From: Hysterangium stoloniferum
Lineage: Eukaryota; Basidiomycota; Agaricomycetes; Hysterangiales; Hysterangiaceae
Length of the DNA stretch: 64,000 bases
Reading direction: 5' to 3'
Assembly: GCA_015178975.1 (NCBI GenBank)
Contig: WHVD01000008.1
Coordinates: 1 to 64,000, forward strand
In this document: positions 8,229 to 57,167 of the stretch, piece by piece
Numbering within the stretch: position 1 is the first letter of the stretch
Layout: the number at the start of each line of letters is the position of its first letter
The notes under the pieces: model-generated
Seen by the model: only the letters and a program-made list of their open reading frames with translations
Told to the model about the DNA's origin: nothing
Databases searched by the model: none
Program-made: the position numbers and the translations under genes

Positions 8229-8374
8229 TCTCCAGGAACAGATCTTCACACTTGGGCCTTCCCAGATCACTGTAGGTCCTTGCCAAATTGGCCTTGGCCA
8301 GAATGGTGTCAGGGTACTCTGGACTTAGTATGAGCTGTCAGACTTCCAACACCTGATGCTCAAGCACCTCTGCC
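8229..8374 (-). pseudogene. TPR-repeat host gene, piece 6 of 6 (most C-terminal)
   Basis: Read on the minus strand this is one kinesin-light-chain-type TPR unit (motifs YPDTILAKANLARTYSDLGR and QVLE), possibly followed by the start of another (CEDLFLE). It carries a TGA where sister units have CGA. It joins piece 5 in frame (KEAEVLE) once C1 and one ctgcc duplication are removed. The left end is cut by unit G. TPR arrays with near-identical 42-residue units are typical of the sensor part of fungal NLR/STAND proteins; no NTPase domain lies in this window, so that identity is inference. Confidence 0.85.
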
Positions 8375-9670
8375 TGTGAGGTATCAGCTTTATCTCATAA
8401 TTTTCTCTTAATTTTCTTTGAATTTATTAATATTTTCTCGAATTTATTGTATTTTTTATTATATTTTTATTGTGAAATATAGGCTCTATTCCTTTTAACT
8501 TCGCATAATAATAGCATATATGAACTCATATTATGCTATTATATCTTAGTTAATTTATTATAATTTTTAACTAATTATTTATATTTTATTTACTTAGTTA
8601 TTACCTTTCGGCACCTTGTGCAGCCTAGTTTGCGCATTTTTGGAGTCATGTGACTTATTACATAAGCCTCCAGTGTCGGGATGTCACAAAGGTCATGAAT
8701 GTGACTACCCGAGTCACACAAGTAACGAATGTGACTACCGAGTCATTATTAGGTTCTGCTGACTCATCGTTTGCTTCCGTCCCGGGACCGCGGCCTTGAA
8801 CCTTTATGTTCAAGCAAGAGGTTAGAACCCTTGTCTCAGAGAGGGGAATCATGTGATAAACAAAGGGTAAATAATGAGTAGAATATGAGGTCATTATGAT
8901 CTCACTAATGACCTCATAAACTAAATAGTTAGCTAATCATTGAGTTATCAAAATGTATATAAGGAGGGCCAAGTTTCCAATAAAACCAATCTATCACACA
9001 CACATTTTACAGTACAGCACAGAAGCTTACCTCATCATCCTAAGGACAATAATAGCCTTAGTCTGATACACTCACTGCAAGCACCTACACTTGCAGCATC
9101 TTGAATCTTTGTCAGCAACTCTTGGACTTAGCTAATCATCTAAGTTCCCCCAGCCTCACAGCTACCCTTTAGGCTTATTAATTAGATAATAAACCTAATA
9201 AGCATCTAAGTATCCTTACTGAAATTCCTGCCAATACTAGATTACTCAAGGCCCAGCCCTAAGTTTATTGAATTAATCAAGTACAAGCACTCAGATAATC
9301 CAATACATATTATTTTTTCTATTAATAAATTATTTGACACCTTGTTAAATAACTATTAATAGTTACAAATAAGCATACAAGAATCCGAAGCTCTTATATC
9401 AAGTCTCTGCCAAGTTACTGCGCATATATTCAGCTTCCAGCCCCTATTCTCAAGGAATAGTTCTTGTATTTGCTAAAAGAGTCATACACAGTTCTATTGA
9501 ACCTTTCAATAATCAAAATAAGCATTGATTTGAGTTGTTTAAGCTTCATAGTGCAGCTCATTAATCTATCAGTATTTAAATTACTGGACCTTTGCTTGTT
9601 TTATTGTTGAAGCTCTGTGACACTATAGCATATATTGAGCTATCTAAGAGAATCCCCTGAATACATTACA
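8375..9670 (+). repeat. Solo LTR C1
   Basis: 1296 bp, TGTGAGGTATCAGC...AATACATTACA, with the perfect TSD ctgcc at 8370-8374 and 9671-9675. A TATA box (TATATAA, 8956-8962) sits in AAATGTATATAAGGAG, a core promoter shared with family B. One TGACTCA site lies at 8760-8766. No coding sequence. Inserted in the TPR gene. Confidence 0.95.
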
Positions 9671-10109
9671 CTGCCTCTTTGGGCCTTCCCAGATCACTGT
9701 AGGTCCTTGCCAAATTGCCCATAGCCAGAATGGTGTCAGGGTGCTCTGGACCTACATATATGAGCTGTTGGGCTTCCAACACCTGAAGCTCAGGTGGCTC
9801 TGTCTCCTTGGGCCTTCCCAGATCTACTCTGTAGGTCCTTGCCAAATTGGCCTTGGCCAGAATGGTATCAGGGTGCTCTGGACCTAGTATGAACTGTCAG
9901 GGTTTGAACACCTGAAGCTCAGGCACCTCTGGCTCTTTGGGACTTCCCAAATCACTGGAGGTCCTTGCCAAATTGCCCTTGGCCAAAATGGTGTCAGAGT
10001 GCTCTGAATCTTGTATGAGCTGTTGGGCTTCCAACACCTCAAGCTCAAGCACTTCTCCCTCCTTGGGCCTTCCCAGATCACTATAAGTCCTTGGCCAAAT
10101 TGGCCTTCA
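9671..10109 (-). pseudogene. TPR-repeat host gene, piece 5 of 6
   Basis: Holds about three and a half 42-residue TPR units read on the minus strand, with period 126-129 bp. Recognisable cores are SDTILAKGNLART, PDTILAKANLARTY and PDTILAMGNLARTY, each followed by DLGRPKE- or DLGSPKE-type linkers. The first unit has one extra base (GGCCAAGG for GGCAAGG), which shifts the frame; another has TGA for CGA, and one has a two-codon insertion (RTYRVDLG). At the DNA level this looks like a 128-bp satellite, but the minus-strand reading explains the period. Confidence 0.88.
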
Positions 10110-10703
10110 TGTTATGACCAGAAATCCTGCCAGACTCCGGGCACTAACTTATATGCACCTACACCCTACATGCACCAATTATCAGTTTACCAGAATACCC
10201 ACTGGACTCCAGATGTCAGACCTGTCCACGCTCAACCTTACTTCATGTATCAGTCACTGGAATACCCACCGGAACCTGCTCCTGTCTATCTCTGACCCTG
10301 TCCCACACACCAGTCACTAGACCCCATTCAGAAAACCCAACAGCTCTCTAACTGAGCCCTGTTCCCATTATGGTTAAATGACCTGTCACATTTCAGACTC
10401 CACTCCTGCCCCATTCCCATTATGGTTTAACGACCTGTCACAATTCAGACTCCACTCCACTCCGTTCCATTCCTAACATTAAGTTTGGTGTTTACTTATC
10501 TCGTTTCATGTTTGCTAGTTTAGTTTTCATTATTACTGGATTTGGTATGTTATACATTCCATGGTCTATGTATATAGTCTGGCAGATGTTGTACATACAA
10601 TCCAGTCAGAAAATCAGCTTAGATTCTCCCCAGTAATCTCAAGTACATTTTCTGCTCTAATATCCTCTTTGAAACACACCACTTTACCTTGTTGGGGCCC
10701 ACG

Positions 10704-10879
10704 TATTAGATCTTTTGGGTTTGCAAACAATGTAGCATGTGATTGATGGGTAACCGGGTATAGTATTACTGCTAGTAGGTACTTAAACTAGGTACTTGTA
10801 CTCTACACTTCATACGTTTACAACGTGTTCTTTGTACCCAAACTGAGTCAAGCGTATTATGAACCCACAAATTCTAACA
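10704..10879 (+). repeat. 5' LTR of the copia element
   Basis: 176 bp. It starts TATTAG, presumably a decayed TGTTAG, and ends CTAACA. It is the same length as the 3' LTR once E3 is removed. The preceding TSD ccacg is at 10699-10703. Confidence 0.85.
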
Positions 10880-11106
10880 CAAACATATAACCTAGCTTGA
10901 AGGGCATTATCAAGCAATGCCCAGTGGGGCTGAAACCACTAGACTTGCACAGCTTTGACTAGCCGCTCGCTTTATCATTGCAGACACTCACGCTACGAAG
11001 TTGACCTGACCTGAACTGATATGCCGCCATGCCTCGTTGAAAAGTGTGTGTTGCGCTGAACCCAAACCTGTGGACGCCCTGTTGAAAAGATTTGCACACT
11101 GAACCC
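10880..11106 (+). other. Copia leader, left part
   Basis: Untranslated leader between the 5' LTR and the B1 insertion. Near its right end are two copies of a roughly 49-bp unit with the core GTTGAAAAG, continued at 22162. I could not match a primer binding site to a specific tRNA. Confidence 0.6.
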
Positions 11107-12193
11107 TGTTATGTATTTCTAGGTTTTTTCTGATTTTTTAACCAATCTCCCCTAATTGCGAAAATGAATATTTAAATGTAATTATATTGCAAAGATAAAA
11201 TTGTACAATATTTGCTTGATTTATCTTGAATTTATACAATTTATTTTGTATTTTTATCTTATAAATTGAGCAAGTTATTGAATGTCTACCTTTTCTTCTT
11301 TTTTGATTAATATGCCGGCAACTCAGCGCTTATTCACAACGCGTGAAAAGATCATGTGATATTCACTTGACATTTCAAACTCTGACAATGAAGAAATGCG
11401 ATATGAAATAATCCCGCATTATCAAGGTAAAATATATATTTATATATTATTATAATAAAATTATTATATTTATAATTAACTAAAAGTAAATATAATAATT
11501 ATATAATAATTTAAAAACTGGCCATCTGGTGCTTATTACACAGCGCGTGGGAAAATTGTCACAACGGGTGACAACCGTCACAACAGGTGACAGTTGTCAC
11601 AAGGGCATGTGACGGTCACAGAGGTGTGTAACAGTCACAAGAGCGCGCAACGGTCACAAGAGCGTGCAATGGTCACAAAGGCGTGCAATGTCACAGAGGT
11701 GCACAACGGTCACAAAGGCACGCGACAGTCACAACATGTGACAGTTACAAGATGCGAAGGGTGTCATACATGTGCACAGGCACGAGAGCATTATGTCATC
11801 ATATACATATGCTACTTGTGAGGTATCAGCATTATCTCATAATGGTCTCTTAATTTTCTTTGAATTACTTGATATTTTCTCGAATTTTTATTGTATTTTT
11901 TACTATGTTTATTGTGAAAAATAGGCCTTATTCCTTTTAACTTCGGATAAATAATAGCATATATGGACTCATATTATGCTATTATTACTTAATTAATTAA
12001 TTATAATTTTTAACTAATTATTTATATTTTATTTACTTAGTTATTACTGTCCGGCACATTGCCTTGCTTGTATGTGTACATTTGGGCATCACATGACACA
12101 TTACCTAATCCGGCTCATACAGTCACACTAGTGACTAGCATCTAGTCACACGAGTGACTGCAACACTAGCCACACGAGTGACTGTAACACTAG

Positions 12194-12558
12194 TGTCATG
12201 TATTTTAAAAGGTTTTTCTATTTTTCACAATTTCCCCAAAACGAAATTCTTAACAAAGGCTTCTAAATGTACTTATATCGCAATTATAAAAATTGTACAA
12301 TATTCTCTTAATTTATATTGAATTTATGCAATTTATTTTGCATTTTTATCTTATAAATTGAGGAAGCTACGAAATTTCTACTTTCTATTCTTTTTTAACT
12401 ATATATCTTCAAACCGGCCACCTGGCGCTTATTACACAATGCGCGGGAACAATTCGTCACAACAAGTGACCAGTTGTCACAACAAGTGACTGGCCGTCAC
12501 GACGAGTGACCATCGTCACAATGAGTGACAGTCACAAGGGCGCGCGACAGTCACAAGG
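12194..12558 (+). repeat. LTR B2, 5' fragment only
   Basis: The first 365 bp of a family B LTR (TGTCATGTATT to one and a half 19-bp units). It stops mid-U3 and joins directly to the A2 polyprotein at 12559. The missing rest of B2 and the missing 5' LTR, gag and protease of A2 imply one deletion joining the two. Confidence 0.75.
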
Positions 12559-15500
12559 AATAAGGCCCCTTTTGGGAAGCACGAGAAGGAGCAACCCAAG
12601 CTCACCTCTCTCCCCGATAAAGGTGTGCTTACTGAAAGAGTCATGCAAGCCTTGGAGGATTGCACTATCGATCCAGAGTCAGCCAGACTAGTGCCTATTT
12701 TTGTTGAAGATCTAAAGGGCGAGGAATGGATTGTTGAAGGAATTGTATTGCAAAATGAGGACGGTTCCATATTAGCCACACCAATCACGGCAATTTCAAG
12801 GAATAGTGCGGCAGTACCTTTAGCCAATCCATCGCTAACCCCTAAGACTATCCGACGAGGGGAGACAATAGGGATAATTCATGACCCCATTCGTTGGGCT
12901 CACAAGCCCAGGTCACTTGAGGAGAAAGGTTTAATGGCAGCAGGCATGACCAAGATCGCACACCTTATCGAAAGTCTCTCTCAACTTGAGGAGGACCGTC
13001 AAGTCGCCTCAGAGAGGCCTAAGCCACCTGTTGAACCAGAGATTGCGGACGATTTCGAACCGCCTGGTCCTAAGATGGCTGCAGTGGCTGATAATGAGAA
13101 ATTTGCCTCAGAGGATCTTCACAAGCTAGTCAACTTGGGACCAGATATACCAATGGAGGTCCTGCCATGTCTCAGATCAGTTTTGACTGAGAACGTTAAG
13201 GCTTTCGGAGTCGACGGACGGTTAGGGCAAGTGGAATGTAGAGTCCCTGTCCCCTTGAAAGAGGGCACCCAGCCCATATCCATGCCTATGTTCCCTTCGT
13301 CCCCTGCCAATAGGAGAGTTATAGACGAGCAAATGGATACCTGGTTCGAACAGGGTGTCATTGAGCCATCTAAAAGCCCCTGGGGGGCGCCAGCCTTTGT
13401 AGTATATCGCAATGGTAAACCGCGGGTGGTCATCGACTATCGGAAACTTAATCATCTCACTGTTCCAGATGAATTCCCTTTACCACGTCAATCGGAGATC
13501 ATGCAAGTGCTGTCGGGATCAAATGTTCTTTCTTCTTTCGACGCGCTAGCTGGGTTTACTCAATTAGAAATGTTGGAGGACGACAAGCCCAAAACAGCCT
13601 TTAGATCTCATAGAGGGCTGTGGCAATTTAAAAGGATGCCGTTTGGGCTCAGAAACGGCCCCTCCACATTTCAGTGTGTCATGCAAACAGTCTTAGCACC
13701 CTACTTGTGGATTTTTTGTCTAGTCTACATCGATGACATAGTCATATTCTCTAAGAACTGGGATGATCATTTGCTCCACCTGAATCAGGTGCTTGGCGCT
13801 ATCGCTTTGGCCGGTATCACTCTCTCTCCCAAGAAATGTTTTATCGGATATAATTCGATCTTGTTGTTGGGTCATAAAGTATCCAGGTTGGGTTTTTTGA
13901 CCAATCAAGAGAAAGTTCGCGCTATATTGGAACTGGCCCCACCCACTAAGGTCTCTGAACTACAACGGTTCCTTGGAATGGTCCTTTACTTTTTGGCGTA
14001 TATACCATTCTATTCATGGATGGTGTCCCCTTTATTCTCGCTCCTAAAAAAGGGAACACCCTGGACGTGGACCGCTGAACACGTCCGAGCTTATGAGGAT
14101 GTTAAAACCGCACTAGGATCAGCACCAGTGCTGGGACATCCAGTTAGTGGGATGCCCTATCGATTGTATACGGACGCTTCAGATTTTGCCTTAGGTTGTT
14201 GTCTCCAACAAGTCCAGAAGATGGCTTTAGGAGACTTGATGGATACTAAAATCTATGCCCAAGCCAAGTTAGCTTTTGACTGTGTGCAGGATGTGCCATC
14301 CTTTGTTCATCGGTACAAAACCAAACAGCCCGAGATTGAGTGGTTGGATTCATGGGGACCCACTTTTGAGGTGACTGAAGTCACTGTTGAATGAGTCATT
14401 GCATACTGAAGTCGCACGCTGAAAAGCGCTGAACGTAACTATTCTGCCACTGAACGGGAAGCGTTAGCAGCAAAGGAGGGACTAGTCCACTTCCAACCCT
14501 TTATTGAAGGTGAACACGTTCTACTCATTACGGACCATGCAGCTCTGCAATGGGCTAGATCGTACGAGAACACTAATCGTCGACTAGCCGCATGGGGGGC
14601 GATATACGCTGCATTTCCAGGTCTCGAAGTTTTACATCGAGCAGGAAGAGTTCACAGTAACGTGGACCCATTGTCCAGACTCCCTCAGGTACCAGCCTTC
14701 GTGAGCCCTATTAGAGATGATTTACAAGCTATCACCTCGACCTCTCTGGACAAAAGCACTGAGGAAAAACTATGGAAGGACGAACCTGCTAAGAAGGCGG
14801 TCTTCTCGATCATAAACGATTCCATGGAACCTTTTGGAGTAACTCAGAAGGTTCGACAGTCGGAATGGGATTTTCATAATGCAGTGAGGGACGATCAGGA
14901 GGACGAGTCCAACTTTGCACTGCATCATCCTCAGCTGCTAATCAGTATCGAGGAGGGATATATAAAGACATTTCTAGAAGGATACTCGAAGGACCCAGTC
15001 TTCAGAAACCTCTACGCTCTAGATACCCCCTCACCCAATGCGGTTGTTACTCCTTCTCACTACTTTGTAGGAGCAAACAGACTCCTGTACTTTTGTGACT
15101 CGGACTGGAAAAGTCGAGTTTGCGTGCCCAGAACCATGACTAGCTCTATTTTAAGATTGGTACATGATAATCCTTTTGAGGGAGCACACGCCGGAGGTCA
15201 GCGGTTGTTCAACCTAATGAAAGACCAGTTCTTTTGGCCAAAAATGCTGCAAGATTGCGTGTCATACGTGTGTACCTGCGACATCTGCCAAAAGACCAAA
15301 ATTGATCGCACTGCTCGTCAAGGAGCTCTCAGACCTGCCGACGTACATTTTAGGCCTTTCGAAGTAGTTTCTATGGACCTGATCACTGGACTACCTGACT
15401 CGGGAAAGGCTTTGTATTCAGCAGTTTTCATCGCCGTTGATAAATTAATGTGTTTCGCTATTACAATACCTACTTTCTCGAACCTTACGGCTGAAGGATT

Positions 15501-16458
15501 TGCACGAATGTTTGTTAAACAGGTGGCCAGCCCCTTCGGACTACCCTCTCGAATAATCTGCAATCGGGACAAGAGACGGACCTGCAGGTTCTGGTGGGAA
15601 GTCTGTAAGATTTATGGCACCACCCTTGCGGTATCTTCTGCCCATCATCCCCAAATGGATGGACAGATGGAGAATATGAATGCGACCATAGAACAAATGC
15701 TTTGAGCCTATTGTGCTTCTGCTAAGGAGAGCTGGTCCCAATGGATTGAGGTGGTAGTCCATGCGTACAACTCAACCGTTCACAGTTCGACAAACTACGC
15801 TCCGGCCTTCTTATTAATGGGATACCTCCTGAGAGGGATGTCTCAAGTTCTAGGAGGTGACGAACCCCTAGTTCCTAGAGAACTATCAGACAGCCCTATG
15901 GCTGACCAATGGATTCTCGAACTAGAGAATCATCGACAGATGGCTTGGGATTCCATTGCTCGAGCCCAAGAGATTCAAGCACGAGCGTATAACAAGAAGC
16001 AAAGACCTGTAGAAGATATCTCTGAGGGAGACTTTGTATTGGTGAACCCCCACTCCCTCGAACTGGTGGAAGTCAAGGGAATGGGGAAGAAACTAATACA
16101 AAGAAGGATTGGACCATTCGAGGTCCTTGAGAAATTGAACTCTCAAGTATTTAGGCTTAAGATTCCCCTGGAGTATCCGATGCATCCAGTCATTAATCGG
16201 GATCATCTGCAAAAATATCAACCCTCTCCTCCCAACCTAGGTCCAAGACCCCAACTTGAGAACCTAAGAGAGTTGAAATCAGATCATGAAGAATATGAAG
16301 TTGAAGCTATTGTTGGACATAGAAAAAAGCGAAATCGTCTGCTATTTAGGGTGCGCTGGAAAGATTATGGACCCGAAGAGGATTCTTGGTTAAGCAGCAC
16401 TAACCTCAGAAATGCTCCGGCACTTCTGAGGGCATACAAGGTGCTGTTCAAAATTTAA
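12559..16458 (+). pseudogene. pol (RT, RNase H, integrase, chromodomain) of A2
   Basis: One frame of 1300 codons. The RT has SPWGAPAFVVYRNGKPRVV, FPLPRQSEIMQ, MPFGLRNGPSTFQ and the catalytic YIDD (13726-13737). RNase H follows with Asp in YTDASDFALG (14167), Glu in ATEREALAAK and Asp in ITDHAALQWA. Then come the zinc-binding domain (HDNPFEGAHAGG, CDICQK), the DDE core, GPF and chromodomain as in A1. TGA codons occur at 14392-14394 (CAA in A3), 14407-14409 (TGG in A3) and 15703-15705 (CGA in A1). The second core Asp has changed (CNRDKR, against CDRDKR in A1). The product would make and integrate element cDNA; as read it is dead. Confidence 0.96.
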
Positions 16459-16818
16459 CGGGATATATGCACTCAAGGAATCATCTATTCTATCATTTAT
16501 TCCATTTCTTTCGTAACTTCCTTTCAGAAATATCTCAGTCATTCAGCGAGCCATCTCATTGGCTTTTATTCTCTTTCATATTTCTATCCCTCCGGTCGAT
16601 TGGGACAACCACTAATTGGCGGCGGACACATTTACCCAAAACCCAGCCACAATTAATGAATTTTATTTAATGACCAACCGAGCGGAGTTTCAATTCAATA
16701 TATATATAAAAAAAGTACACGTAAATTCGCATAAATTTTCTTTATCTTTCATACCATGTCCTTCACCTATCTACAGCCCTTCCCTCTACCTTCAACTTCA
16801 CCACTTTATCATGCTACA
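16459..16818 (+). promoter_or_regulatory. Intergenic region with probable ORF3 promoter (A2)
   Basis: Same layout as in A1: ATTGG boxes, a TATATATATAAAAA stretch (16699-16712) and a CT-rich leader ending just before ATG 16819. Its conservation across copies, with decay mostly elsewhere, supports a real regulatory role. Confidence 0.58.
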
Positions 16819-19587
16819 ATGCTCCCATTCCAACAAAACAAGCAAGTCCTCCCTAAGTTCAAAAAGGTCCCGCGGGCCCCGACAGCCAGTACATCCATGA
16901 CCGGCAGGGGATTCATCACCCGCATGCCTCGTACAGACAATGTCGAGAGCAATTGGGGTACCCAAGAATCAACCCCCCTGTCGACTTTCTCCTTTGGTGA
17001 TGAGCCGGGGGGAAATACTGGTATGGATTGGAGCAAGCCGTTAGGGCCCTCCGTCAGACCGTCATCAGAGGAAGTCGCTGCTACTATGTGGAGGCAGGAA
17101 ACGTTTATGGAAGAACACAATGCAAGGAGGCTCACCCGCAAAAGAGAAAGGCGCGCTGAGTACAGAAGTCAACAGGAGGCAAGGGGAGCAAGAGAAGGAG
17201 TCCCCTCCAAGTGACAGCGGCGTGAGTACAGAGCGCAATTCGGAAACAGAGCTTCCACGCCGATCCTTCCCCCCCTGGGAGAGAAATGGGCCGACTTCGC
17301 GGAGACTGATGATAGTGAGGGTGGGACGCCTTGCATTAGGATGACGGGAACCAAGAGCTGGAAGGAGAAGGAGGGTACCATCTTTTATGACTGGGAACTA
17401 CTTCGACGCATTAAGTTGCAACGAATAGTTCTTACCCGAGGGGACGGTCAAACGTTGCCCCAGCGAGAAAAGGGATACCGTAGGGGACCAATTGATTTTT
17501 TCTCGGATGAGGATGAGGAGGAAGACGAGAACAGGAATGGTGCGTATAGCATCCGATATCTGGGAGAGGATTGCCATGAAGGGTTCCTTCTCCCGTCGAA
17601 AGTTCGCTTTGTAACCAGCGACCCCAACCAAAGACAAACACGGAGACCGTCATCCAGAGTATGGAGGGGTCACTGCCCTAGTCAACAGTCACTGGAATGC
17701 GAACCTTCCACGATTCCGGTCCCACGTCTTTCGCCAACATCGAGGCCCCTTCCCATCATTCACCCAACACACACTCCCTCAGCCCCGATTCTAACTCCTC
17801 ATCTACCTCCCTCCCCAAAAGCTGTACCAGTCCCAACCTCACTTAGGATGTCGAGGCCCCCTCCCATCCTTCACCCGGCACACACTCCCTCAGCCCAACG
17901 CGAACCTTCTCCGATTCCAGTCCCACGCCTTTCACCAACGTCGAGGCCCCTTCCCATCCTCCTTCCGGCACACACTCCCTCAGCCCCGATTCTAGCGCCT
18001 CGTCTCTCTCCCTCCCCGAAAGCTATACTGCTCCCAACCCCACTTCCGCCGTCACTGGGTATCCCTCCCGACTCTCCGTATTCATATTGCATGTCCTTAG
18101 GTAGCCCTATCCAGGACCTTCCACCAGAGTGAATGGATGTCGATTTGGACCCTCCTACACTGGACGTCATCATTCCCATGGCAAGCAGAAAGGCGAAGGA
18201 GATGCAGAAAGCCACCACTCCTCTCCAAGAGCGATCCCCTATTCCCGTCCTCGACAGCCCACTTCCCCCCACTGAGCCCGTATCCACAACTTTCTGGATG
18301 CGAGTAGCTGTCAACTACCCTTCCGAACAGTTTCCTGTCAGAAGGGTGCTATCACAGCTCGTGCCGGTACTTCAGCAACCGGTCCTTCAAGGGAGCCTTA
18401 AGGGTTGTCGCGGTCTGGCTCCGTTGTCGTAGATAATGGAGGATTTCTATCTCTCCTTCGAGGATCTCGCAGAGGGGAAGAACTTTGCGTGAGCAGCACA
18501 GGAGATTAAACTCTCTATGTTCCGGCACATCATAGTGGAGCTTCACCGTCTGCCCCCAGACTCAGCGAGTGTCCTCTCTATTGCTGGCTTAGTAGATTTA
18601 CTCAAGGCCCTCGTCCTGACGCCTCCCACAGAGACCACCACACAGCCACACGTTCCTGCCCTGCTACCCACGTCTTCGTTTCCCCTCCCCAATGCTCCTC
18701 TTCTCGCGCGGATTTCCGCTCCGCCGGTTAGTGTCCGCGCAGTCATTCATTGCAGAGAGAAAGCCTACAGACGATGGGCCGACTCCTTGTACAGGAATTC
18801 TAGTGATTTGGCTCGGGCGAGAATAGCTGAATCCTTCAGAGTAAAAAGGGAACAATGGGGAAACATCATTTTGGACCTTGGGGGATCCTCACAGGAAGCT
18901 TGGTGCGGCATTGTGAGGAGTATGCTTTTACCACAGTTTCATTGTGGTAAAACACTCCTTTTATTTCATTTATATTTTACATATTTTATTCATATTTTTC
19001 TATCTTTCATATTCTTCGAATATTGCATACTTCATTAGTTTGAAGCATTGTGTATACTTGTGGGTGCACTCAGCACAATTGGAACTCAGACAACTTTTAC
19101 CCAGCAGACACCACCTCGTAACGACTCAGACGTCGAATAGCGAGAGGTGTCAAGGGTAGTATCTCAGCTACCATAAGGGTAGCATTCTCTAGTCTACTAA
19201 TAGCCTTTTGGACTCGAACCGCTAAGGTCGAGTTCCGCTTTCAAGACTTTGCGCTTGTCGACACCGTAGTCGACTCATGCTACTATTACTCTATCCTAGA
19301 CACTCAGTCTTTAGCTGAGTATCTTACTTATTTCTAGCTACTAGTTGTACCGTAAAAGGTCAACTCATTATCTTACTGTTCTAAGCCGTCACGAGCAACT
19401 ATACAGTTGCTCTTGAGGCGTGCAGTGTGTTCCTATACTAGTACTAACAGTCTAGTAGTCTATAGTATTGTACTGACGGTCAATACTCTCTAATAGTAGT
19501 TGAATAAACACTATTCTTCGTATATTGAGCGGTCAGAATCCACCACTCTTCACAGGCATCCCAGATGCTCTTCGACACCTTGTATAG
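16819..19587 (+). pseudogene. ORF3 of A2, interrupted by E1
   Basis: Removing E1 (18912-19554) and one ggcat copy leaves 707 codons in a single frame ending TAG at 19585-19587. Premature stops are TGA 17212-17214, TGA 18130-18132, TAG 18430-18432 and TGA 18490-18492; the three TGA are CGA in other copies. It is 25 codons longer than A1, entirely from one extra unit in the proline-rich region (HPTHTPSAP-like and SPSPKA-like repeats). Domain order is as in A1. That four stops but no frameshift are present suggests decay by CpG transition after a period of coding constraint. Function unknown. Confidence 0.85.
18912..19554 (+). repeat. Solo LTR E1
   Basis: 643 bp, TGTGAGGAG...CTTCACA, with the perfect TSD ggcat (18907-18911, 19555-19559), inside ORF3 of A2. 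A perfect inverted repeat (TTTTACCACA at 18926-18935, TGTGGTAAAA at 18943-18952) lies just inside the 5' end. Related to A and D in ends and layout. Confidence 0.95.
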
Positions 19588-19598
19588 CACATCCCTTC

Positions 19599-19612
19599 GA
19601 ACTGGGGGGCAC
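19599..19612 (+). other. Polypurine tract (A2)
   Basis: GAACTGGGGGGCAC immediately before the 3' LTR, identical to that of A1. Confidence 0.8.
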
Positions 19613-20254
19613 TGTGAAGAGTATGCATATATGCATAATTGGACTAAGGAATAATAGTTGGATTATAGTACTTTATTATTTACTTTTTATTTTCTTCATT
19701 TACATTCTTTCTATATTTCGATCATACCCTTATTTTGTAGTTCGAAGCTTTGTGCATATGTATGGGTGCTCTCGGCGCCAAACGATAGTCACTTTTTACC
19801 CAGCAGACACCACCTCGCAAACGACCCAGACGTCGAATAGCGCGAGGTGTCAAGGGTAACGTCTCAACTACCTATAAGGGTAGTGTTCTCTCGCATACTC
19901 ACAGACTTTGGACTCGAACCGTGAAGGTCGAGTTCCACTCTAAGGTCTTTGCACTCGTCGACAATATAGTCAAGTCGTGCTATTATCCCTTTATTTTAGA
20001 TATTCGGCCTCTTGTTGATTATCTATCTTACGTCTAGCTACGAGTTGTACCGTGAAGGTCAACTCTTTCATTCTTCATTCTAGCCGTCAAGAGCAACTGT
20101 ACAGTTGCTCTTGTGACACGTTGCGTGTCTCCTTACTAGTACGGCCAGTCTAGTAATCTACGGTATTGTACTGAACAGTCAATACCTGCCAATAGTAGTT
20201 GAATAAATGCTATACTTTGTATATTGAACGGTCAGAATCAATTGACTCTTCACA
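19613..20254 (+). repeat. 3' LTR of A2 (family A)
   Basis: 642 bp, TGTGAAGAGTATGC...CTTCACA, with the near-terminal palindrome TATGCATATATGCATA. It is followed directly by the right part of C2, starting gcacc, so gcacc is the expected TSD; the left copy was lost. Confidence 0.93.
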
Positions 20255-22161
20255 GCACCTACACTTGCAGCATCTTGAATCTTTGTCAGCAACTCTTGAA
20301 CTTAGCCAATCATCTAAGTTTCCCCTGCCTCACCTTTAGGCTTATTAATTACATAATAAACCTAATAAGTATCTAAGTATCCTTACTGAATTTCCCTGCC
20401 AATACTAGATTATTCAAGGCCCAGCCCTAAGTTTATTGAATTAATCAAGTACAAGCACTCAGATAATCCAATACATATTATTTTCTCTATTAATAAATTA
20501 TTTGACACCTTGTTAAATAACTATTAATAGTTACAAATAAGCATACAAGAATCCGAAGCTCTTATATCAAGTCTCTGCCAAGTTACTGCGCATATATTCA
20601 GCTTCCAGCCCCTATTCTCAAGGAATAGTTCTTTTATTTGCTAAAAGAGTCATATATTGTTCTATTGAACCTTTCAATAATCAAAATAAGCATTGATTTA
20701 AGTTGTTTAAGCTTAATAGTGCCCCTCATTAATCTATCAGTATTTAAATTACTGGACCTTTGCTTGTTTTATTGTTGAAGCTCTGTGACACTATAGCATA
20801 TATTGAGCTATCTAAGAGAATCCCCTGAATACATTACACTACTACAGCAAAAACCAGAAACTCTCTGGAACATTCCAGTGGCTTCCAATGGAACATTAGT
20901 TAATAGATACAAATAGTAGATAGAATATTGTAGAATATTCTATAATGTCTTAGAAGTAGTTAGAACCTTTCACAATGCTCTAGAAAATTCTAGAAAATTC
21001 TAAATGACATCATTCCTTCCAGAATGACATCATTCAATCTTCTAGAATCTTCTAAATGTCTCAGACTAAAATGTATATAAGGAGCTCAGCTCCAGCCTTG
21101 AAAATAAATCAATGAATCAAATCATCTTATCAACCCACCACATCTGTGTGTGACTGCAGCAAGCAGGCTACTCCACCCCTATCTGGGCAGTTGGACATCT
21201 AATTCCACCTCTATCAGAGCTGTTGGAAACCCTTGCCACCTCTATCAGAGTTGTTGGCCCAATCAGATCCCTTGTCACCTCAATCTGAGGTGTTGACTTT
21301 TGTTTGTTCCCCCTTGCCACTTTTTAATTGAGTAGCTGGCTATCTTTTATATATTATTTCTACCTCAGTTAGAGTTGTTGGTTATCAACCAATAATATAT
21401 AAATAATATTACACTATAGCATCTCTTAATTGAGTACTGATTATTAGTTTTCTTTACATTGTTATTTGTAGTCTAAGACTTCAGTCACCTCTAGTTGAGT
21501 AATTTGACTATTTATTACATTGCAAATAATCCCTCTACATTGTTATTTGTACTCTAAGACTTCAGTCACCTCTAGTTGAGTAATTTGACTGTTTATTACA
21601 TTGCAAATAATCCCTTTTCCATTGCTCATTTATTGTGAATCAGTAAAGCATATTCACATAAATACATACTGAGAATATTCTTGCAGAATCCTTAAGACTA
21701 CATTAAGATCCTGATAAGTTAGTATCACAGTAGACCCTGTAGGTTAGTGTAAATAAAGCATATATTAGCCAAATAATGTTTTATTCTATATCTAATCTTT
21801 TGACCTGTTTATAAATATTTTTACTGTTTGATAAATAGTATAAAATATATATAAACTAGCTAGAATTGAAGTTAAATCTAGCTTCGGAATCAGTGAATTG
21901 TTATTCATATTTTAGTAATCATTTTCACAGAAAAAGAACAAGCTTGCAGAAGCAGCTCTCAAAACCTTCTTTGCAAAGTAGGGTGCATACATTCAAGTAA
22001 ACTCTTGACTTCAGGGGTTCTAAGTCTATTCAGGCTGCCACTGATTAATATCAAATACTTAAATTATTTTACCTTGCAGTGAATTGAGTATTTGCACATT
22101 TTGATAGAGCATTGGACTCCTTTTTCAGACAATAGTATTAAAATAAGGTGAATACATTACA

Positions 22162-22384
22162 AACCTGAACCCGAACCCGAATTGTGGATGCCTTGTTGAA
22201 AAGCATCGCACACCAATCCCGAACCCGAACCCGTGGATGCCTTGTTGAAAAGTGTCGCATGCCGAACCCAAACCCGAACCTGTGGACGCCTTGTTGAAAA
22301 GCATCGCACACCAAACTGAACTGTTAGCCACACCCCATCGAACAGTGTGTGCCAAACCCGAACCTGAACTGAAGACACCGAAAC
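22162..22384 (+). repeat. 49-bp minisatellite in the copia leader
   Basis: Three to four units with period 49 bp and core TTGTTGAAAAG (at 22193, 22242 and 22291), separated by GAACCCGAACC-rich spacers, directly upstream of the gag ATG at 22385. More units lie left of B1 near 11030-11106. It sits in the leader where packaging or translation signals are expected; no function is shown. Confidence 0.8.
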
Positions 22385-23544
22385 ATGCCAGAACTGTTAA
22401 TTCCAAAACTCAATGATCGCAACTACACTGACTGGGCTTATCTGATGGAAGCACTACTCGCTGACAAGGACCTGTGGGATGTTGTTAGTGGTGACATGAC
22501 CCGTCCGCCTGGTTCTGCAAACTCAAAGCCAGTCCATGCCTTTGTGTGAAGAGTGGTATAAGTTCTGACTGTTCTATATATGAAGAAATGAGTAGAATGG
22601 GAGGAAGGATGATTCAAGAAGGATGATTCAAGTGGAGGCCTCGACTGTTACAGTTCGAGGCCTGAAGTGTTAGATAGTTCAGATACTGCTACTTATGTAG
22701 TAGCTGACATGTTACCCTGATCACCACTCGTAGTAGACCTAGTTTATGTCTTACGAGTGGTGGTGCTTGGGTAAAAGTATGTCTGAGTTCTAATTGGTGC
22801 CAAGTGCACCCACAAGTATACACAATACTTTGAACTAAGGAAATATGCAATCTTTGAAGAATATAAAAGATAGAAAAATATGAATAGAATATGTAAAATA
22901 TAAATAAAATAAAAGGAGTGTTTTACCACAATGAAACTGTGGTAAAAGCATACTCCTCACACTTGGTGATGAAGCAGAAACTCGCCTGTGCCAAGATTAT
23001 CCTTCACGTTGAAATGTCACAGTTTCCCCATACACGTCATGAAGATCCGAAGATTATTTGGGAAAGTTTGAAACAAGTCCATCAGGCCCACGGTTTCACT
23101 ATCCATCTCGCCCTTCACCGTCATTTTCTTTATATGCAGAAGTGCAATGATCAGACAATGAACTCCTGGATATCAGAAGTCAAAAATGCCGCCTACAGAT
23201 TGACTGATGCAGGTATAGATGTTCTCGAAGAAGACATTATCCTTGCACTTTCAGCTGGCCTTCCTGACACCTACTCCACATTCATTGTTACCCTCGACTC
23301 TATCCCTCCTGACCAATTGACACTTGACAGTGTCATCACCCATCTCATGAATGAGGTGTGCCAAGAACCATCCACTGAAATTCGCCCCGACCCAGAGACC
23401 ACACTCGCCATCTGCAGCAAAGGCAAATGGCCCACATCCGAAATCACATGTTTTAACTGCGGTGGTGGGGATATTATGCTACAGATTGTTCATCTGCATC
23501 ACTGTGAGGTAATCAGAAACTATTATCTAATACTGCAGCCATAG
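22385..23544 (+). pseudogene. Ty1/copia gag, split by solo LTR E2
   Basis: Capsid-type gag of the fungal copia class (UBN2-like). ATG 22385 opens MPELLIPKLNDRNYTDW, a typical start. Coding continues to 22544, is broken by E2, and resumes at 22967 in frame (AFV then MKQKLACAK) when one TSD copy is removed. Later motifs are IWESLKQVHQ, FLYMQKCNDQTMNSWI and LPDTYSTF. A single CCHC knuckle begins CFNC but is frameshifted by one base: the next frame reads GYYATDC, where GHYATDC would be normal. About 246 codons to TAG 23544. It would form the virus-like particle shell. No pol follows. Confidence 0.88.
22545..22961 (-). repeat. Solo LTR E2 (short form)
   Basis: 417 bp, minus orientation, with flanks ctttg and cttgg (a TSD with one mismatch). 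It lacks about 220 bp present in E1. The inverted repeat near its 5' end (right side, 22920-22947) is intact. It lies inside the copia gag, and removal restores the frame. Confidence 0.9.
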
Positions 23545-23642
23545 CAATAGATGAAAATAAGGAGTGTACAGATACTGAGCATGTTCTCTTAGTCATTTAG
23601 TGTGAGTTTTTCTGTATGAAGACTACATTGTTCAAGAAGGAG
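23545..23642 (+). other. Copia 3' tail and polypurine tract
   Basis: About 100 bp between the broken gag and the 3' LTR. It shows no long reading frame and ends in AAGAAGGAG (23634-23642), a likely polypurine tract. It probably contains the join left by loss of the whole pol region. Confidence 0.55.
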
Positions 23643-24297
23643 TATTAGATTTTTTGGGTTTGCAAACAATGTAGCATGTTATTGATGGGTAACTGGGTAT
23701 AGTATTACCGGTTGTGAAGAGTGGCGGAAGTTCTGACCGTTCTATATACGAAGAAATGAGTAGAAGGGAAGGATATTGACCTATTCGGTGCAATATAAGA
23801 GAAAGTGAGAGAAAGAGCACGAGATGACGAAGGAGTCAACGAGTGCGATGGTTCGAGTGGAGGCCTCGACTATTACAGTTCGAGGCCAGAAGTGTTTAGT
23901 AGTTCAGATATTGCTACTTATGTAGTAGCTGACACGTTACCCTGATCACCGCTCGTAGTAGACCTAGTTTGTGTCTTACGAGTGGTGGTTCTTGGGTTAA
24001 AGTGTGTCTCAGTTCTAATTGGTGCTGAGTGCACCCACAAGTATACACAATGCTTCGAACTAATGAAATATGCGATATTCGAAGAATATAAAAGATAGTA
24101 AAATATGAATAGAATATGTAAAATATAAATGAAATAAAAGGAGTGTTTTACCACAATGAAACTGTGGTAAAAGCATACTCCTCACACTGGTAGTAGGTAC
24201 TTAAACTAGGTACTTGTACTCTACACTTCATACATTTGCAACATGTTCTTTGTACCCAAACTGAGTCAAGCATATTACGAACCCGCAAATTCTAACA
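23643..24297 (+). repeat. 3' LTR of copia, split by solo LTR E3
   Basis: TATTAG...CTAACA. Removing E3 and one TSD leaves 176 bp, the same length as the 5' LTR. It is followed by ccaca (24298-24302), the second copy of the element's TSD. Confidence 0.85.
23713..24186 (-). repeat. Solo LTR E3
   Basis: 474 bp, minus orientation, TGTGAAGAG...CTCCTCACA, with flanks ccggt and ctggt (a TSD with one CpG transition). It is the same length as E4. It lies in the copia 3' LTR. Confidence 0.93.
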
Positions 24298-24581
24298 CCA
24301 CAGGCTCCGACCCATCTATCACTTGACCTCCAACCTATGTATCTCGACCCTTGACTCATCTCTGCCTGACCCCTTGACTTCTGTGGGATTCCCGCAGTCG
24401 ACTCCCTGACCTCTCAACCCACAAACCCCTCCCAGACTCCCTGGGATTCCTGTCCACCTGTCTGAAATTGGACAAGACGATCTCACAAGGGTGCAGCCTA
24501 TAAGCTGAAGCCAAGTCCTACCAGATTTCCCACAGGTTTCTCTAGAAACCCTCTGATAAGCTCCATGAACAACTCTTAACA

Positions 24582-24749
24582 CTTTGCCAGAATGGTGTCA
24601 GGGTGCTCTGGACCTAGTATGAGCTGTCAGGCTTCCAATACCTGAAGCTTAAGCACCTCTCCCTCCTTGGGCCTTCCCAGATCACTGTAGGTCCTTGCCA
24701 AATTGGCCTCAGCCAGAATGGTGTCAGGGTGCTCTGGATCTTGTATGAG
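24582..24749 (-). pseudogene. TPR-repeat host gene, piece 4 of 6
   Basis: Minus-strand reading gives one and a third 42-residue TPR units: PEHPDTILAEANLARTYSDL, GRPKEGEVLKLQVLEA, a TGA at 24627-24629 where sister units have CGA, then LGPEHPDTILAK. It joins piece 3 in frame across B3 (RQLIQDPEHP) and piece 5 in frame across F1. Confidence 0.88.
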
Positions 24750-26692: not shown

Positions 26693-26809
26693 ATGAGCTG
26701 TCGGGCTTCCAATACCTCAAGCTTAAGCACCTCTGCCTCCTTGGGCCTTTCCAGATCACTGTAGGTGCTTGCCAAATTGCTCTTGGCCAGAATGGTGTCA
26801 GAGTCCTCT
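26693..26809 (-). pseudogene. TPR-repeat host gene, piece 3 of 6
   Basis: One TPR unit on the minus strand: DSDTILAKSNLASTYSDLER then PKEAEVLKLEVLEARQL. It joins piece 2 perfectly in frame (LGPEDSDTILAK) across the 29-kb D element when one cctct copy is removed, which proves that the two pieces were one gene. Confidence 0.9.
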
Positions 26810-43987: not shown

Positions 43988-45889
43988 TTAAATTTTGAAC
44001 AGCGCCTTGTATGCCCTCAGAAGTGCCGGAGCATTTCTGAGGTTAGTGCTGCTTAACCACAAATCCTCTTCGGGTCCATAATCTTTCCAGCGCACCCTAA
44101 ATAGCAGACGATTTCGCTGTTTTCTATGTCCAACAATAGCTTCAACTTCATATTCTTCATGATCTGATTTCAACTCTCTTAGGTTCTCAAGTTGGGGTCT
44201 TGGACCTAGGTTGGGAGGAGAGGGTTGATATTTCCACAGATGATCCCGATTAATGACTGGATGCATCGGATACTCCAGGGGAATGTTAAGCCTAAATACT
44301 TGAGAGTTCAATTTCTCAAGGACCTCGAATGGTCCAATCCTTCTTTTTATTAGTTTCTTCCCCATTCCCTTGACTTCCACCAGTTCGAGGGAGTGGGGGT
44401 TCACCAATACAAAGTCTCCCTCAGAGATATCTTCTACAGGTCTTTGCTTCTTGTTATACGCTCGTGCTTGAATCTCTTGGGCTCGAGCAATGGAATCCCG
44501 AGCCATCTGTCGATGATTCTCTAGTTCGAGAATCCATTGGTCAGCCATAGGGCTGTCTGATAGTTCTCTAGGAACTAGGGGTTCGTCACCTCCTAGAACT
44601 CGAGACATCCCTCTCAGGAGGTATCCCATTAATAAGAAGGCCGGAGCGTAGTTCGTTGAACTGTGAACGGTTGAGTTGTACGCATGGACTACCACCTCAA
44701 TCCATTGGGACCAGCTCTCCTTAGCAGAAGCACAATAGGCTCAAAGCATTTGTTCTATGGTCGCATTCATATTCTCCGTCTGTCCATCCATCTGGGGATG
44801 ATGGGCAGAAGATACCGCAAGGGTGGTACCATAAATCTTACAGACTTCCCGCCAGAACCTGCAGGTCCATCTCTTGTCCTGATCACAGATTATTCGAGAG
44901 GGTAGTCCGAAGGGGCTGGCCACCTGTTTGACAAACATTCGTGCAAATCCTTCAGCCGTAAGGTTCGAGAAAGTAGGTATTGTAATAGCGAAACGCGTTA
45001 ATTTATCAACAGCGACGAAAGCTGCTGAATACAAATCCTTTCCCGAGTCAGGTAGTCCAGTGATCAGGTCCATAGAAACTACTTCAAAAGGCCTAAAAGG
45101 TATGTCGGCAGGTCTGAGGGCTCCTTGACGAGCAGTGCAATCAATTTTGGTCTTTTGGCAGATCTCACAGGTATGCACGTACGACATGCAATCTTGCAGC
45201 ATTTTTGGCCAAAAGAACCCGTCTTTCATTAGGTTGAACAACCGCTGACCTCCGGCGTGTGCTCCCTCAAAAGGATTATCATGTACCAACCTTAAAATAA
45301 AGTTAGTCATGGTTCTGGGCACGCAGACTCGACTTGTCCAGTCCAAGTCATGAAAGCACAGGAGTCTGTTTGCTCCCACAAAGTAGTGAGAAGGAGTGTT
45401 ATGTATTTCTAAGCTTTTTCTGATTTTTTAAACAATTTCCCCTAACAAATTGCGAAAACAAATATTTAAATGTAATTATATCGCAACGACAAAATTGTAC
45501 TATATTTGCTTGATTTATCGTGAATTTATACAATTTAGTTTGTATTTTTAACATATACATTAAGCAAGTTATTAAATTTTTATCTTTTATTCTTTTTTGA
45601 TTAATATGTCGGTGACTCAGCGCTTAGTCACAACGCGCGAAAAGATCATGTTGATATTCACATGGTATTTCAAACTCCGACGCCGACAAAACGCGATTTG
45701 AAATACTCGCGCATTATCAAGGCGAAATATATATATTTTTATATTATTATAATAAAATATTATATTTATAACTACCTAAAAATAAATATAATAATTATAT
45801 AATAATATAAAACCGGCCTGGCGTTTATTACACGGCGCGTGGGAAAATCGTCACAACGAGTGACAACCGTCATAACAGGTGACAGTTGT

Positions 45890-46611
45890 CACAAGGGCGC
45901 GCGACGGTCACAGGGGCGCGCGACGGTCAAAGAGGCGCGTGACGGTCACAAAGGCACGCGACGGTCACAGAGACGCGCGACGGTCACACAGACGCGCGAC
46001 GGTCACACAGACGCGCGACGGTCACACAGACGCGCGACGGTCACACAGACGCGCGACGGTCACACAGACGCGCGACGGTCACACAGACGCGCGACGGTCA
46101 CACAGACGCGCGACGGTCACACAGACGCGCAACAGTCACACAGACGCGCGACGGTCACACAGACGCGCGACGGTCACACAGACGCGCGACGGTCACACAG
46201 ACGCGCGACGGTCACACAGACGCGCGACGGTCACACAGACGCGCGACGGTCACACAGACGCGCGACGGTCACACAGACGCGCGACGGTCACACAGACGCG
46301 CGACGGTCACACAGACGCGCGACGGTCACACAGACGCGCAACAGTCACACAGACGCGCGACGGTCACACAGACGCGCGACGGTCACACAGACGCGCGACG
46401 GTCACACAGACGCGCGACGGTCACACAGACGCGCGACGGTCACACAGACGCGCGACGGTCACACAGACGCGCGACGGTCACAAAGGCGCGCGACGGTCAC
46501 AAAGGCGCGCGACGGTCACAAAGGCGCGCGACGGTCACAAAGGCGCGCGACGGTCACAAAGGCGCGCGACGGTCACAAAGGCGCGCGACGGTCACAAAGG
46601 CGCGCGACTGT
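45890..46611 (+). repeat. 19-bp tandem array in B6, 38 units
   Basis: 722 bp = 38 x 19 bp with no length variant. The major unit is CACACAGACGCGCGACGGT; the outer units read CACAAAGGCGCGCGACGGT or similar. Because 19 is not a multiple of three, the same 19-residue peptide repeat appears in more than one frame, so the long reading frames here are artefacts. It is extremely rich in intact CpG. Confidence 0.97.
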
Positions 46612-54011: not shown

Positions 54012-54012
54012 C

Positions 54013-54652: not shown

Positions 54653-55143
54653 ATATCAAACGGGTGGAACTCTCCATGTTTCGGTCCTTACTTGTCAACT
54701 CTTCTTGTGTTCTTCCTGAACACACACCAACCCACTCAGCAGTGGACCTCGTTGACTTGTTGGAGCAACTGTTACCGGATTCGGACACCTCGAGAGGAAT
54801 CCCCCCTGGGGGAGACATGAGCTCCACACCGCTTATCACTCCTACCCCGCCATCACTACACCCTCGACCCCCTCTCATTGCCCACATTACTGATGCTTCT
54901 GATCGCGTTCGCGCCATAATTCGAATACGCCAGAAGGCCTACGGTTGTTGGGTCTCGTCAATCCAAAAACTGGATGGGTTGACATCCGCCAATGATGCTT
55001 CAAAGCGGGAGGACATTGCTCTTTCCTTTTGTGCCAAGCGTCTCACCTGGGGCAACGCTATCCTACACCTTGGGGGTTCATCGCAGGACGCATGGGGAGA
55101 AGTTCCAAGCATCCTTCAACATCTTCTTTGACATAGCTCTTCG

Positions 55144-55156
55144 ACCTGGGGGGCAC
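55144..55156 (+). other. Polypurine tract of D
   Basis: ACCTGGGGGGCAC, with six G at 55148-55153, lies directly before the 3' LTR of D and matches the A-family tract apart from its left edge. Confidence 0.8.
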
Positions 55157-55757
55157 TGTGAGAGGTATGGCAAAATACACTCAGGAAATATAGTCAGATG
55201 AGCTCTTACTATATTTCCTTTATTATTTCTGTTTTCTCTCTTTTATTATATCTATAATTAGTTCAACGACTATGTATGTGGTACATCGACTCTTGTGGGC
55301 GCACACACACCAGACTTATGTATTCTAGCGCCCATAGTTTAGAACTCAGACACTTTTACACCGCAACCACGACATACCCAGATACCTGTTAGTGTCCTGT
55401 AAGTTGTGATTGGTGTATCATCTCGACCGTCACAGACGGGCTTTAGCTATTTACTCAATCAGAGTTTCGAACTGTACTAATTGAAACTCAATCCTTACCT
55501 CAACCCGCATGGACTACATCTACGCTACTCTACTATTTGACTCTCTAGTTACTCTACTTGACACTCGAGCAGTCACCCAGAATCGCACTGAACAGTCGAT
55601 TCTACTTATTATTACTAGCTCTCTACCATATTGAACTAAGTAGTCAATACGTGTCCAGTCTGTATTAGACTTAGACAGTCAATACATCTCAGTGTCATAC
55701 CTAAACGGTCGATATTCTTCGTATATAGAACGGTTAGAACTTCCACCACTCTTCACA
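55157..55757 (+). repeat. 3' LTR of D
   Basis: 601 bp, TGTGAGAGG...CTTCACA. It is about 30 bp shorter than the 5' LTR because of an internal deletion near 55620. It is followed by TSD cctct (55758-55762), matching the left end of D. Confidence 0.95.
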
Positions 55758-55831
55758 CCTCTGGACCTAGCATGAGCTGTTGGGCTTCCAACACCTGAAG
55801 CTCAAGTGCCTCTGCCTCCCCAAGTTGGGCC
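55758..55831 (-). pseudogene. TPR-repeat host gene, piece 2 of 6
   Basis: Minus-strand reading gives the linker half of one TPR unit (EAEALELQVLEAQQLMLGPE). A 5-bp insertion (ccaag on the plus strand, about 55820) relative to sister units shifts the frame against piece 1. It joins piece 3 in frame across D. Confidence 0.85.
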
Positions 55832-57099
55832 TGTAATGTATTCAGGGGTTTCTCTTAGATAGCTCAATATATGCTATAGTGTCACAGAGCTTCAACAATA
55901 AAACAAGCAAAGGTCCAGTAATTTAGATACTGATAGATTAATGAGCTGCGGTATTAAGCTTAAACAACTCAAATTAATGCTTATTTTGATTATTGAAAGG
56001 TTCAATAGAACAATATATGACTCTTTTAGCAAATAAAAGAACTATTCCTTGAGAATAGGGGCTAGAAGCTGAGTATATGTGCAGTAACTTAGCAGAGACT
56101 TGATATAAAGCTTCGGATTCTTGTATGTGTATTTGTAACTATTAATAGCTATTTACCAAGGTGTTAAATAATTTATTAATAGAGAAAATAATTTGTATTG
56201 GATTATCTGAGTGCTTGTACTTGATTAATTCAATAAACTTAGGGCTGGGCCTTGAATAATCTAGTATTGGCAGGGAATTTCACTAAGGATACTTAGATAC
56301 TTATTAGGTTTATTATGTAATTAATAAGCCTAAAGGGTAGCTGTGAGGCTGGGGGAACTTAGATGATTAGCTAAGTTCAAGAGTTGCTGACAAAGATTCA
56401 AGATGCTGCAAGTGTAGGTGCTTGCAGTGAGTGTATCAGACTAAGGCTATTATTGTCCTTAGGATGATTAGATAAGCTTCTGAGCTGTGCAGTAAAATGT
56501 GTGAGAGATATGATGATTTTATTGGAAACTTGGCCCTCCTTGTATACATTTTGATAACTAAATGATTAGCTAATTATTTAGTTTATGAGGTCACTAGTTA
56601 GATCATAATGACCTCATATTCTACTTATTATTTACCCTTTATTTATCACATGATTCCCCTCTCTGAGACAAGGGTTCTAACCTCTTGCTTAAACATAAAG
56701 GTTCAAGGCTGCGGTCCCGGGACAGAAGCAAACGATGAGTCGGTGGAATCAATTAATGACTTGGGTAGTCACATCCGTGACTTGTGTGACATCCGGACAC
56801 TGGAGGCTTATCTAATAAGTCACATGACTCCAAAAATGTGCAAACAAGGCTGCAGCAAGGTGCTGAAAAGCAATGACTAAGTAGATAAAATATAAGTAAT
56901 TAGTTAAAAATTATAATAAATTAATTAAGTAATAATAGCATAATATGAGTCCATATATGCTATTATTTATGTGAAATTAAAAGGAATAAGGCCTATTTTT
57001 CACAATAAACATAATAAAAATACAATAAAAATTCGAGAAAATATTAGGTAATTCAAAGAAAATTAAGAGAACATTATGAGATAATGCTGATACCTCACA
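55832..57099 (-). repeat. Solo LTR C3
   Basis: 1268 bp, minus orientation, TGTAATGTATTCAGG...GATACCTCACA, with the perfect TSD gggcc (55827-55831, 57100-57104). Same promoter core as C1. I see no coding sequence. Confidence 0.95.
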
Positions 57100-57167
57100 G
57101 GGCCTTCCCAGATCTCTGTAGGTCCTTGCCAAATTGGCCTTGGCCAGAATGGTGCTAAGGTGCTCTG
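57100..57167 (-). pseudogene. TPR-repeat host gene, piece 1 of 6 (most N-terminal seen)
   Basis: Minus-strand reading EHLSTILAKANLARTYRDLG gives the first half of a TPR unit. The gene's N-terminal part, where an NTPase or other effector domain would be expected, lies to the right beyond F3 and A4 and probably outside the window. Confidence 0.85.

Follow-up and report, generated by a model that had tools for sequence, protein, structure and literature searches.

How does a repeat array come to lie in six pieces across 49 kb of retrotransposon sequence? The question is raised by the beginning of contig C533 of Hysterangium stoloniferum, described as an ectomycorrhizal basidiomycete (PMC7550596). 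The window, that is, the whole stretch of DNA analysed here, comprises bases 1–64000 of this contig (1,606,866 bp, in an assembly of 111 Mb and 554 contigs) and contains six pieces, P1–P6, all of which read as tetratricopeptide repeat (TPR) units on the minus strand. We consider it highly likely that these pieces are the 3′ tail of a Hysterangium gene of the NOD-like receptor (NLR) type that was severed by a long terminal repeat (LTR), duplicated, and further shattered. The architecture predicted for this gene is an alpha/beta-hydrolase esterase, NB-ARC and a kinesin-light-chain-type TPR array, and what the window contains of it is a pseudogenised tail rather than a receptor that rearranges.

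Six TPR pieces in the window

A first, sequence-only reading of the window had placed six minus-strand TPR pieces to within 22 bp of where we find them; at the left end, 8229–8250 reads as the start of another element and falls outside the host part of P1. In the direction of reading, the pieces are as follows (copy B is a second copy of the locus on the same contig, treated below).

57100–57167, minus strand: P6, first TPR piece past the severing LTR; unit phase 7–75; 100% identical over 68 bp to C533:91553–91620
55758–55831, minus strand: P5, with a 5-bp frameshifting insertion common to copy B; 98.6% identical to C533:91616–91689
26693–26809, minus strand: P4, TPR piece; 97.4% identical to C533:91685–91801
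24582–24749, minus strand: P3, with an in-frame TGA also found in copy B (92970–92984); TPR_12 E 4.6e-9, over Pfam's cut-off
9671–10109, minus strand: P2, about 3.5 TPR units, containing TGA, a frameshift of +1 and two insertions of 3 bp
8251–8374, minus strand: P1, the final TPR piece found, containing TGA and lying directly next to an LTR-like end (8250)

The unit measures 42 codons or 126 bp, and not 128 bp as first proposed. Measured against the intact neighbour's 126-bp majority unit, the pieces are 88–96% identical, and for the three pieces compared the alignment scores (179 for P4, 111 for P5, 121 for P6) stand against a best score of 23 among 300 random 117-bp stretches of the window. 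The profile check that the sequence-only reading had proposed gave matches from pieces searched apart: with each piece scanned separately against Pfam, and X put at stops, four of the six had a TPR match with E < 0.001, two of them over Pfam's cut-off (P3, and P2 with a best E of 1.3e-13) and two below it (P4, TPR_10, 3.4e-4; P1, 7.4e-4), P6 reached 0.066, and P5, at 24 residues, had no TPR match. With one copy of the target site duplication (TSD) per join discounted, about 965 bp of TPR sequence or 7.7 units is left, where eight units had originally been counted. The window pieces alone hold no open reading frame across units, interrupted as they are by in-frame TGA codons in P1, P2 and P3, by frameshifts of +5 bp in P5 and +1 bp in P2, and by five insertions. 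Left of 8229, blastn at E 1e-6 found no further TPR piece; the contig starts at window base 1.

LTR elements at the joins

The pieces are separated by the following insertions.

57168–57215, minus strand: end of the severing LTR (delta1), common to copy B; 57100–57215 is 97.4% identical to C533:91507–91620 across the TPR/LTR junction
55832–57099, minus strand: alpha-family presumed solo LTR with TSD GGCCC, missing from copy B
26810–55757, no strand assigned: 28.9-kb gap with gamma LTRs at its edges (26810–27439 and 55157–55757); TSD AGAGG; absent from copy B
24750–26692, minus strand: beta-family presumed solo LTR of 1943 bp with TSD CTCAT, missing from copy B
10110–24581, minus strand: delta2 LTR element and other insertions, 14.5 kb; decayed TSD CAAAG/TGAAG; common to copy B (C533:93024–97459)
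8375–9670, plus strand: presumed solo LTR of family alpha; TSD CTGCC (GGCAG on the minus strand)

At all five joins the unit phases of the adjoining pieces overlap by 5 bp, which is the size of the TSD. Two joins show this as aligned (75/70 and 125/120) and three after end-base adjustment (13/8, 36/31 and 85/80), in which one or two end bases were counted that the aligner had dropped or, at 8375, that are assigned to the LTR. Four of the duplicated 5-mers are exact, and that between P3 and P2 is the decayed one. The sequence-only reading had four of the five joins in frame; instead, all five keep the unit phase, and the frame is lost inside P5 and P2. Its central proposal, one host NLR-type TPR array broken by LTR insertions, is upheld by these overlaps and by an unbroken run in copy B, and its five insertions correspond to five joins with target duplication, although they are not of one age, the element between P3 and P2 being common to copy B.

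Ty3/gypsy elements are recognised by TG...CA ends, 5-bp target duplications, solo LTRs and open reading frames for reverse transcriptase, RNase H and integrase. All of these are seen here: the inserts start with TGT and end with ACA, presumed solo LTRs are present, so are 5-bp TSDs, imperfect at delta1 and delta2, and seven of the nine window open reading frames scanned match retroelement domains, the other two having no match. Between the pieces these are reverse transcriptase, RNase H, integrase zinc-binding and zinc knuckle matches, and left of P1 RNase H and chromodomain matches; the integrase core and zinc-knuckle matches lie below Pfam's cut-off, and the internal genes describe the transposable element (TE) content of the window overall rather than each inserted element. 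The inserts thus fit Ty3/gypsy elements, and nothing unusual was seen in the elements themselves. The gamma LTRs at the edges of the 28.9-kb gap belong to a 0.6-kb family, the interior of the gap is other LTR-element sequence, and the two presumed solo LTRs of family alpha (1.3 kb) lie in opposite orientation and are 90.7% alike. Within sequence that resembles the LTR of the beta family, 45755–46605 is a minisatellite with a 19-bp unit in about 37 overlapping copies; other copies of that sequence contain shorter forms of it, at 26008–26285 and 63420–63621.

The front of the gene

The search to the right of the window that the sequence-only reading had recommended does find the part with NB-ARC, at C533:76989–73106 on the minus strand. 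It belongs to copy A, an esterase–NB-ARC–TPR gene at C533:78030–73106, on the same strand as the pieces. The twelve best-matching proteins for the NLR next to the window are all from H. stoloniferum. Domains in copies A and B were assigned by reference to an NLR homologue, P0002, which itself matches the profiles of PGAP1 (4.1e-6), NB-ARC (9.8e-10) and TPR_10 (5.7e-86). Three stretches of copy A are homologous to P0002 (78030–77803, 77744–77028 and 76977–76522, the last with the P-loop GMAGVGKT), and the last-exon frame, 76495–73106, holds 1130 codons with the rest of NB-ARC and 17 TPR units. The esterase is called by homology stretches to P0002 residues 1–288, at 78030–77028 in A and 84714–85715 in B, where AHSLGG is seen, rather than in one assembled and scanned protein. 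GMAGVGKT is present in both A and B, with 71% identity to P0002 residues 424–860. The C-terminal TPR array is conserved, copy A matching TPR_10 at 2.5e-97 (831 of the 1130 frame codons scanned), and 42-residue units number 17 in core A and 18 in core B.

The frame of copy A ends in LLGGEC and a stop. Its codons GAG TGT TAA run across into the delta1 LTR, which has TGTTAAGGACTG at its start and of which the stop is the second codon. The other end of delta1 lies immediately before P6, and the 5-mers at the end of the core and the start of the tail, GAGAG and CAGAG, are one base apart (a 5-bp overlap, judged by eye). We therefore take the window pieces to be the tail of copy A. The tail begins 15.9 kb from the core; the sequence-only reading had missed that an older LTR, extending beyond the window at its far end, had already severed it.

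Ninety units of such arrays were compared, selected by pattern within five arrays' open frames, with C29 and C130 left out and off-pattern or off-spacing units dropped. By position along the unit, entropy per codon is highest at 7, 20, 17, 10 and 32, followed by 39 and 21, and codons 5, 15, 16, 28, 29 and 40 hold one residue throughout, a pattern in keeping with the hypervariability described for such NLRs. A dispersed noncoding 126-bp satellite that resembles TPRs by chance, the alternative that the sequence-only reading had itself raised, would account for the roughly 126-bp spacing and the scatter of the repeat in the window and for nothing else. It is ruled out, with virtually no chance of being right, by the long open TPR frames that the unit forms on C533 and other contigs (1130–1534 codons), which in copies A and B are linked to NB-ARC, and by the concentration of variation at a few codons.

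An inverted second copy

Copy B lies in inverted orientation on the same contig (gene 84714–89763, plus strand; aligned copy 81932–89625, plus strand). The two copies are 93.8% identical over 7.77 kb and stand head to head about 1.1 kb apart; between them, at C533:81312–81764 on the plus strand, is a third copy, a partial one, of the NLR N-terminus, 58–62% identical to P0001/P0002. Copy B carries the delta1 LTR at the same place as A (89764–91552), both cores end at it with LLGGEC and a stop, and the last-exon frames are open up to the LTR, at 1130 codons in A and 1172 in B.

Beyond delta1, the first tail stretch of copy B (91553–91814, 262 bp) holds P6, P5 and P4 uninterrupted, together with the first 18 bp of P3 (by eye). 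Projected onto it, the pieces of A overlap by 5 bp at 91616–91620, 91685–91689 and 91797–91801, and the join LGPEDSDTILAK, which spans 29 kb in A, is present unbroken. Copy B thus shows the pre-insertion state of three insertions of A. The empty allele that the sequence-only reading had hoped for in other strains is in this sense available on the same contig, as a counterpart that is only partly uninterrupted. The +5 bp frameshift in P5 is common to both copies, so the tail was already dead before the duplication; likewise delta2 is common to both and hence older than the duplication, and past it the first 137 bp of P2 are 95.6% identical to copy B (C533:97460–97595). Copy B also has insertions of its own, a 0.6-kb presumed solo LTR at 91815–92446 with TSD CAGAG and, at 92521–92937, an LTR-like insert flanked on each side by AGGAG.

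LTR-rich regions are able to carry captured gene pieces, and one could suppose that the six pieces are separate gene fragments delivered by the elements (transduplication) and never formed one array. The leftmost piece lends this some colour, only one junction of P1 being explained; a simple pattern scan found no partner junction for the element that ends at 8250. Yet the pieces lie in order, on one strand and with 5-bp overlaps, and the unbroken run in copy B refutes transduplication for P6 through the start of P3, with P2 and P1 outside that run; overall we regard it as very improbable. Copies A and B could also be assembly products or unmerged haplotypes, given that they are inverted neighbours on one draft contig, and the insertions absent from B would then be allelic. 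Their head-to-head arrangement in opposite orientation, about 1.1 kb apart and 93.8% alike, is unexpected for unmerged haplotypes, which makes this unlikely, and the pieces would remain one array even if it were true.

Stop codons and selection

The majority unit has a single possible CpG, in the CGA of codon 39 in EA[Q/R]QL (by eye). Deamination of CGA gives either CAA, a sense codon, or TGA. Among exact 15-mers at codon 39 genome-wide, 41 have CGA, 70 CAA and 8 TGA. At these sites TGA is found at none of 30 in cores A and B and at three of nine in the two tails, two of the three being orthologous; P1 and P2 hold further TGA codons in slightly different context. The two short tails have TGA at four distinct sites. 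This pattern fits an untranslated tail that would be decaying in TE-rich DNA. TGA at the same codon of the unit (EA*QL) was also observed outside C533, at C29:236816, C29:237950, C45:195981, C334:898155 and C346:603078.

Because TGA recurs at codon 39, we considered whether the gene is still functional, with core and tail spliced across the elements and TGA read through. The recurrence in several arrays speaks for it, as do the C29 and C45 arrays, which are uninterrupted by LTRs and yet have TGA inside, with the frame open on both sides. On the other hand, TGA is the expected CpG deamination product of CGA, which is the simpler explanation given its distribution between cores and tails, and we rejected programmed readthrough; the tail has frameshifts, the +5 common to both copies and the +1 in A only, and a transcript would have to bridge 15.9 kb between core and tail and a tail span of 49 kb. 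Such a functional gene is extremely improbable.

Whether the truncated cores remained under selection is a separate matter. For the NB-ARC exon, pairs with C45 or C29 give dN/dS of 0.34–0.49. The A–B difference is 2.2% in this exon, 5.7% in the upstream sequence and 3.8–5.3% in the shared LTR stretches. Part of the excess in the flanks is due to CpG change, which makes up 38 of 156 differences upstream and, in the LTR stretches common to both copies, 7 of 27, 23 of 46 and 9 of 15, against 0 of 26 in the exon; gene conversion possibly lies behind the low exon divergence. Judging from their open frames, continued function of cores A and B is possible, and the truncated cores may make a working receptor.

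Order of events and opposing evidence

The following order of events is read from the sequence. The delta1 LTR lies in the TPR array after 17–18 units, its second codon supplying the stop, and leaves an open esterase–NB-ARC–TPR frame upstream and a severed tail downstream. The tail then received the delta2 element and the 5-bp frameshift, and the locus is now present as the head-to-head copies A and B, both with delta1, delta2 and the frameshift. Finally, separate LTR insertions broke each tail further, four more in A within the window and at least two in B. Untranslated after the severing, the tail would have been free to decay, partly by CpG deamination of CGA to TGA in TE-rich DNA.

Several observations weigh against this account. 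The NB-ARC profile is weak, at 16.6 bits against a cut-off of 23.5 for the part of A's exon that was scanned, which lacks the P-loop, and the 51 NB-ARC matches found genome-wide include neither copy; the NB-ARC assignment is made through their homologue P0002, which itself does match the profile. Of 905 protein matches, the best 120 include none that gives the length of contig C533. When the upstream exons are aligned by tblastn, the alignments run through stops, identical in A and B, which are taken to lie in introns of predicted gene models. Between A and B, dN/dS in the NB-ARC exon is 0.74 (393 codons; 7 synonymous and 19 nonsynonymous changes), a value that does not show the truncated cores to have stayed under purifying selection after the duplication, and gene conversion rather than selection could have kept the cores stop-free. 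Lastly, the gamma LTR pair in A, expected to be younger, differs by 6.0%, slightly more than the older shared delta stretches; CpG sites account for 20 of the 36 differences, and a small tension is left standing.

Insertions in other arrays

Of seven arrays inspected, three (A, B and C130) have an LTR-like interruption, the others being C45, C29, C44 and C202; this is no frequency, because A and B were chosen from the window and C130 from a suspected gap. After about 20 units the C130 NLR array (C130:87423–93368) is broken by an LTR-like insert of gamma type, with imperfect flanks CCAAA/CCCAA, and it contains a second insert flanked by GCCAG. A hot spot for insertion within the unit was rejected (circular uniformity, Kuiper p 0.36 with 7 sites, 0.54 with 8 and 0.24 with 10). 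Eight of the ten insertion phases appeared clustered near 7 and 70–80, and an axial test, picked after inspection of the data, gave p 0.086, 0.040 and 0.005 for 7, 8 and 10 sites; two of the ten were entered as one-sided, and the GCCAG insertion of C130 stood outside the test. We make no claim of insertion targeting within the unit.

Relation to known systems and implications

The locus is a well-documented fresh instance of an already known gene type, the sesB-like/NB-ARC/TPR NLRs, a group described as having near-identical repeats, polymorphic repeat numbers and hypervariable positions (PMC4986451). Like the Pa_2_10340-type NLRs of Podospora anserina (Dyrka et al. 2014, PMC4986451), it combines an esterase N-terminus, NB-ARC and near-identical TPR units with few variable positions; unlike them, it is from a basidiomycete, its array is ended in both copies by a stop supplied by an LTR, and the rest of the units form a pseudogene tail in fragments. 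Neither 'pseudogene' nor 'transpos' appears in the main text of that paper. The sequence-only reading had spoken of a relaxed or rearranging immune-type gene, which fits these families as published, but the tail is dead and shows no sign of activity.

A parallel in loss is nwdp-2, a pseudogenised repeat-bearing NLR of Podospora (PMC12222747): there too a repeat NLR paralogue is lost, at any rate from the reference strain, and its repeats overlap those of live paralogues, nwdp-1 being functional in some strains. The passages on nwdp-2 mention stop codons alone, whereas here we see serial LTR insertion with a partial empty-site counterpart. Ty3/gypsy LTR retrotransposons are reported as abundant in basidiomycetes (Miyauchi et al. 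2020, PMC7550596). A targeted literature search, judged by titles and abstract openings and under-covering subscription literature, found, among the papers listed, no publication on LTR disruption of fungal NLR repeat arrays.

The locus offers a clear relative chronology of retrotransposon damage to a fungal NLR, from severing through decay and duplication to independent shattering, and copy B, on the contig of the damaged gene itself, serves as a natural though partial empty-site counterpart. It also hints that such NLR genes are easily missed in annotation, long open NLR frames notwithstanding. One could speculate, as a rather unlikely extension, that the C-terminal part of NLR arrays is a dispensable zone repeatedly trimmed by LTR elements, whose first codons would be a ready stop giving shorter working receptors, and that the cut-off units would persist as mutated repeats in the TE compartment and could feed live arrays by gene conversion. 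The locus makes testable the question of whether fungal NLRs shortened from the C-terminal end by LTR insertion may still function.

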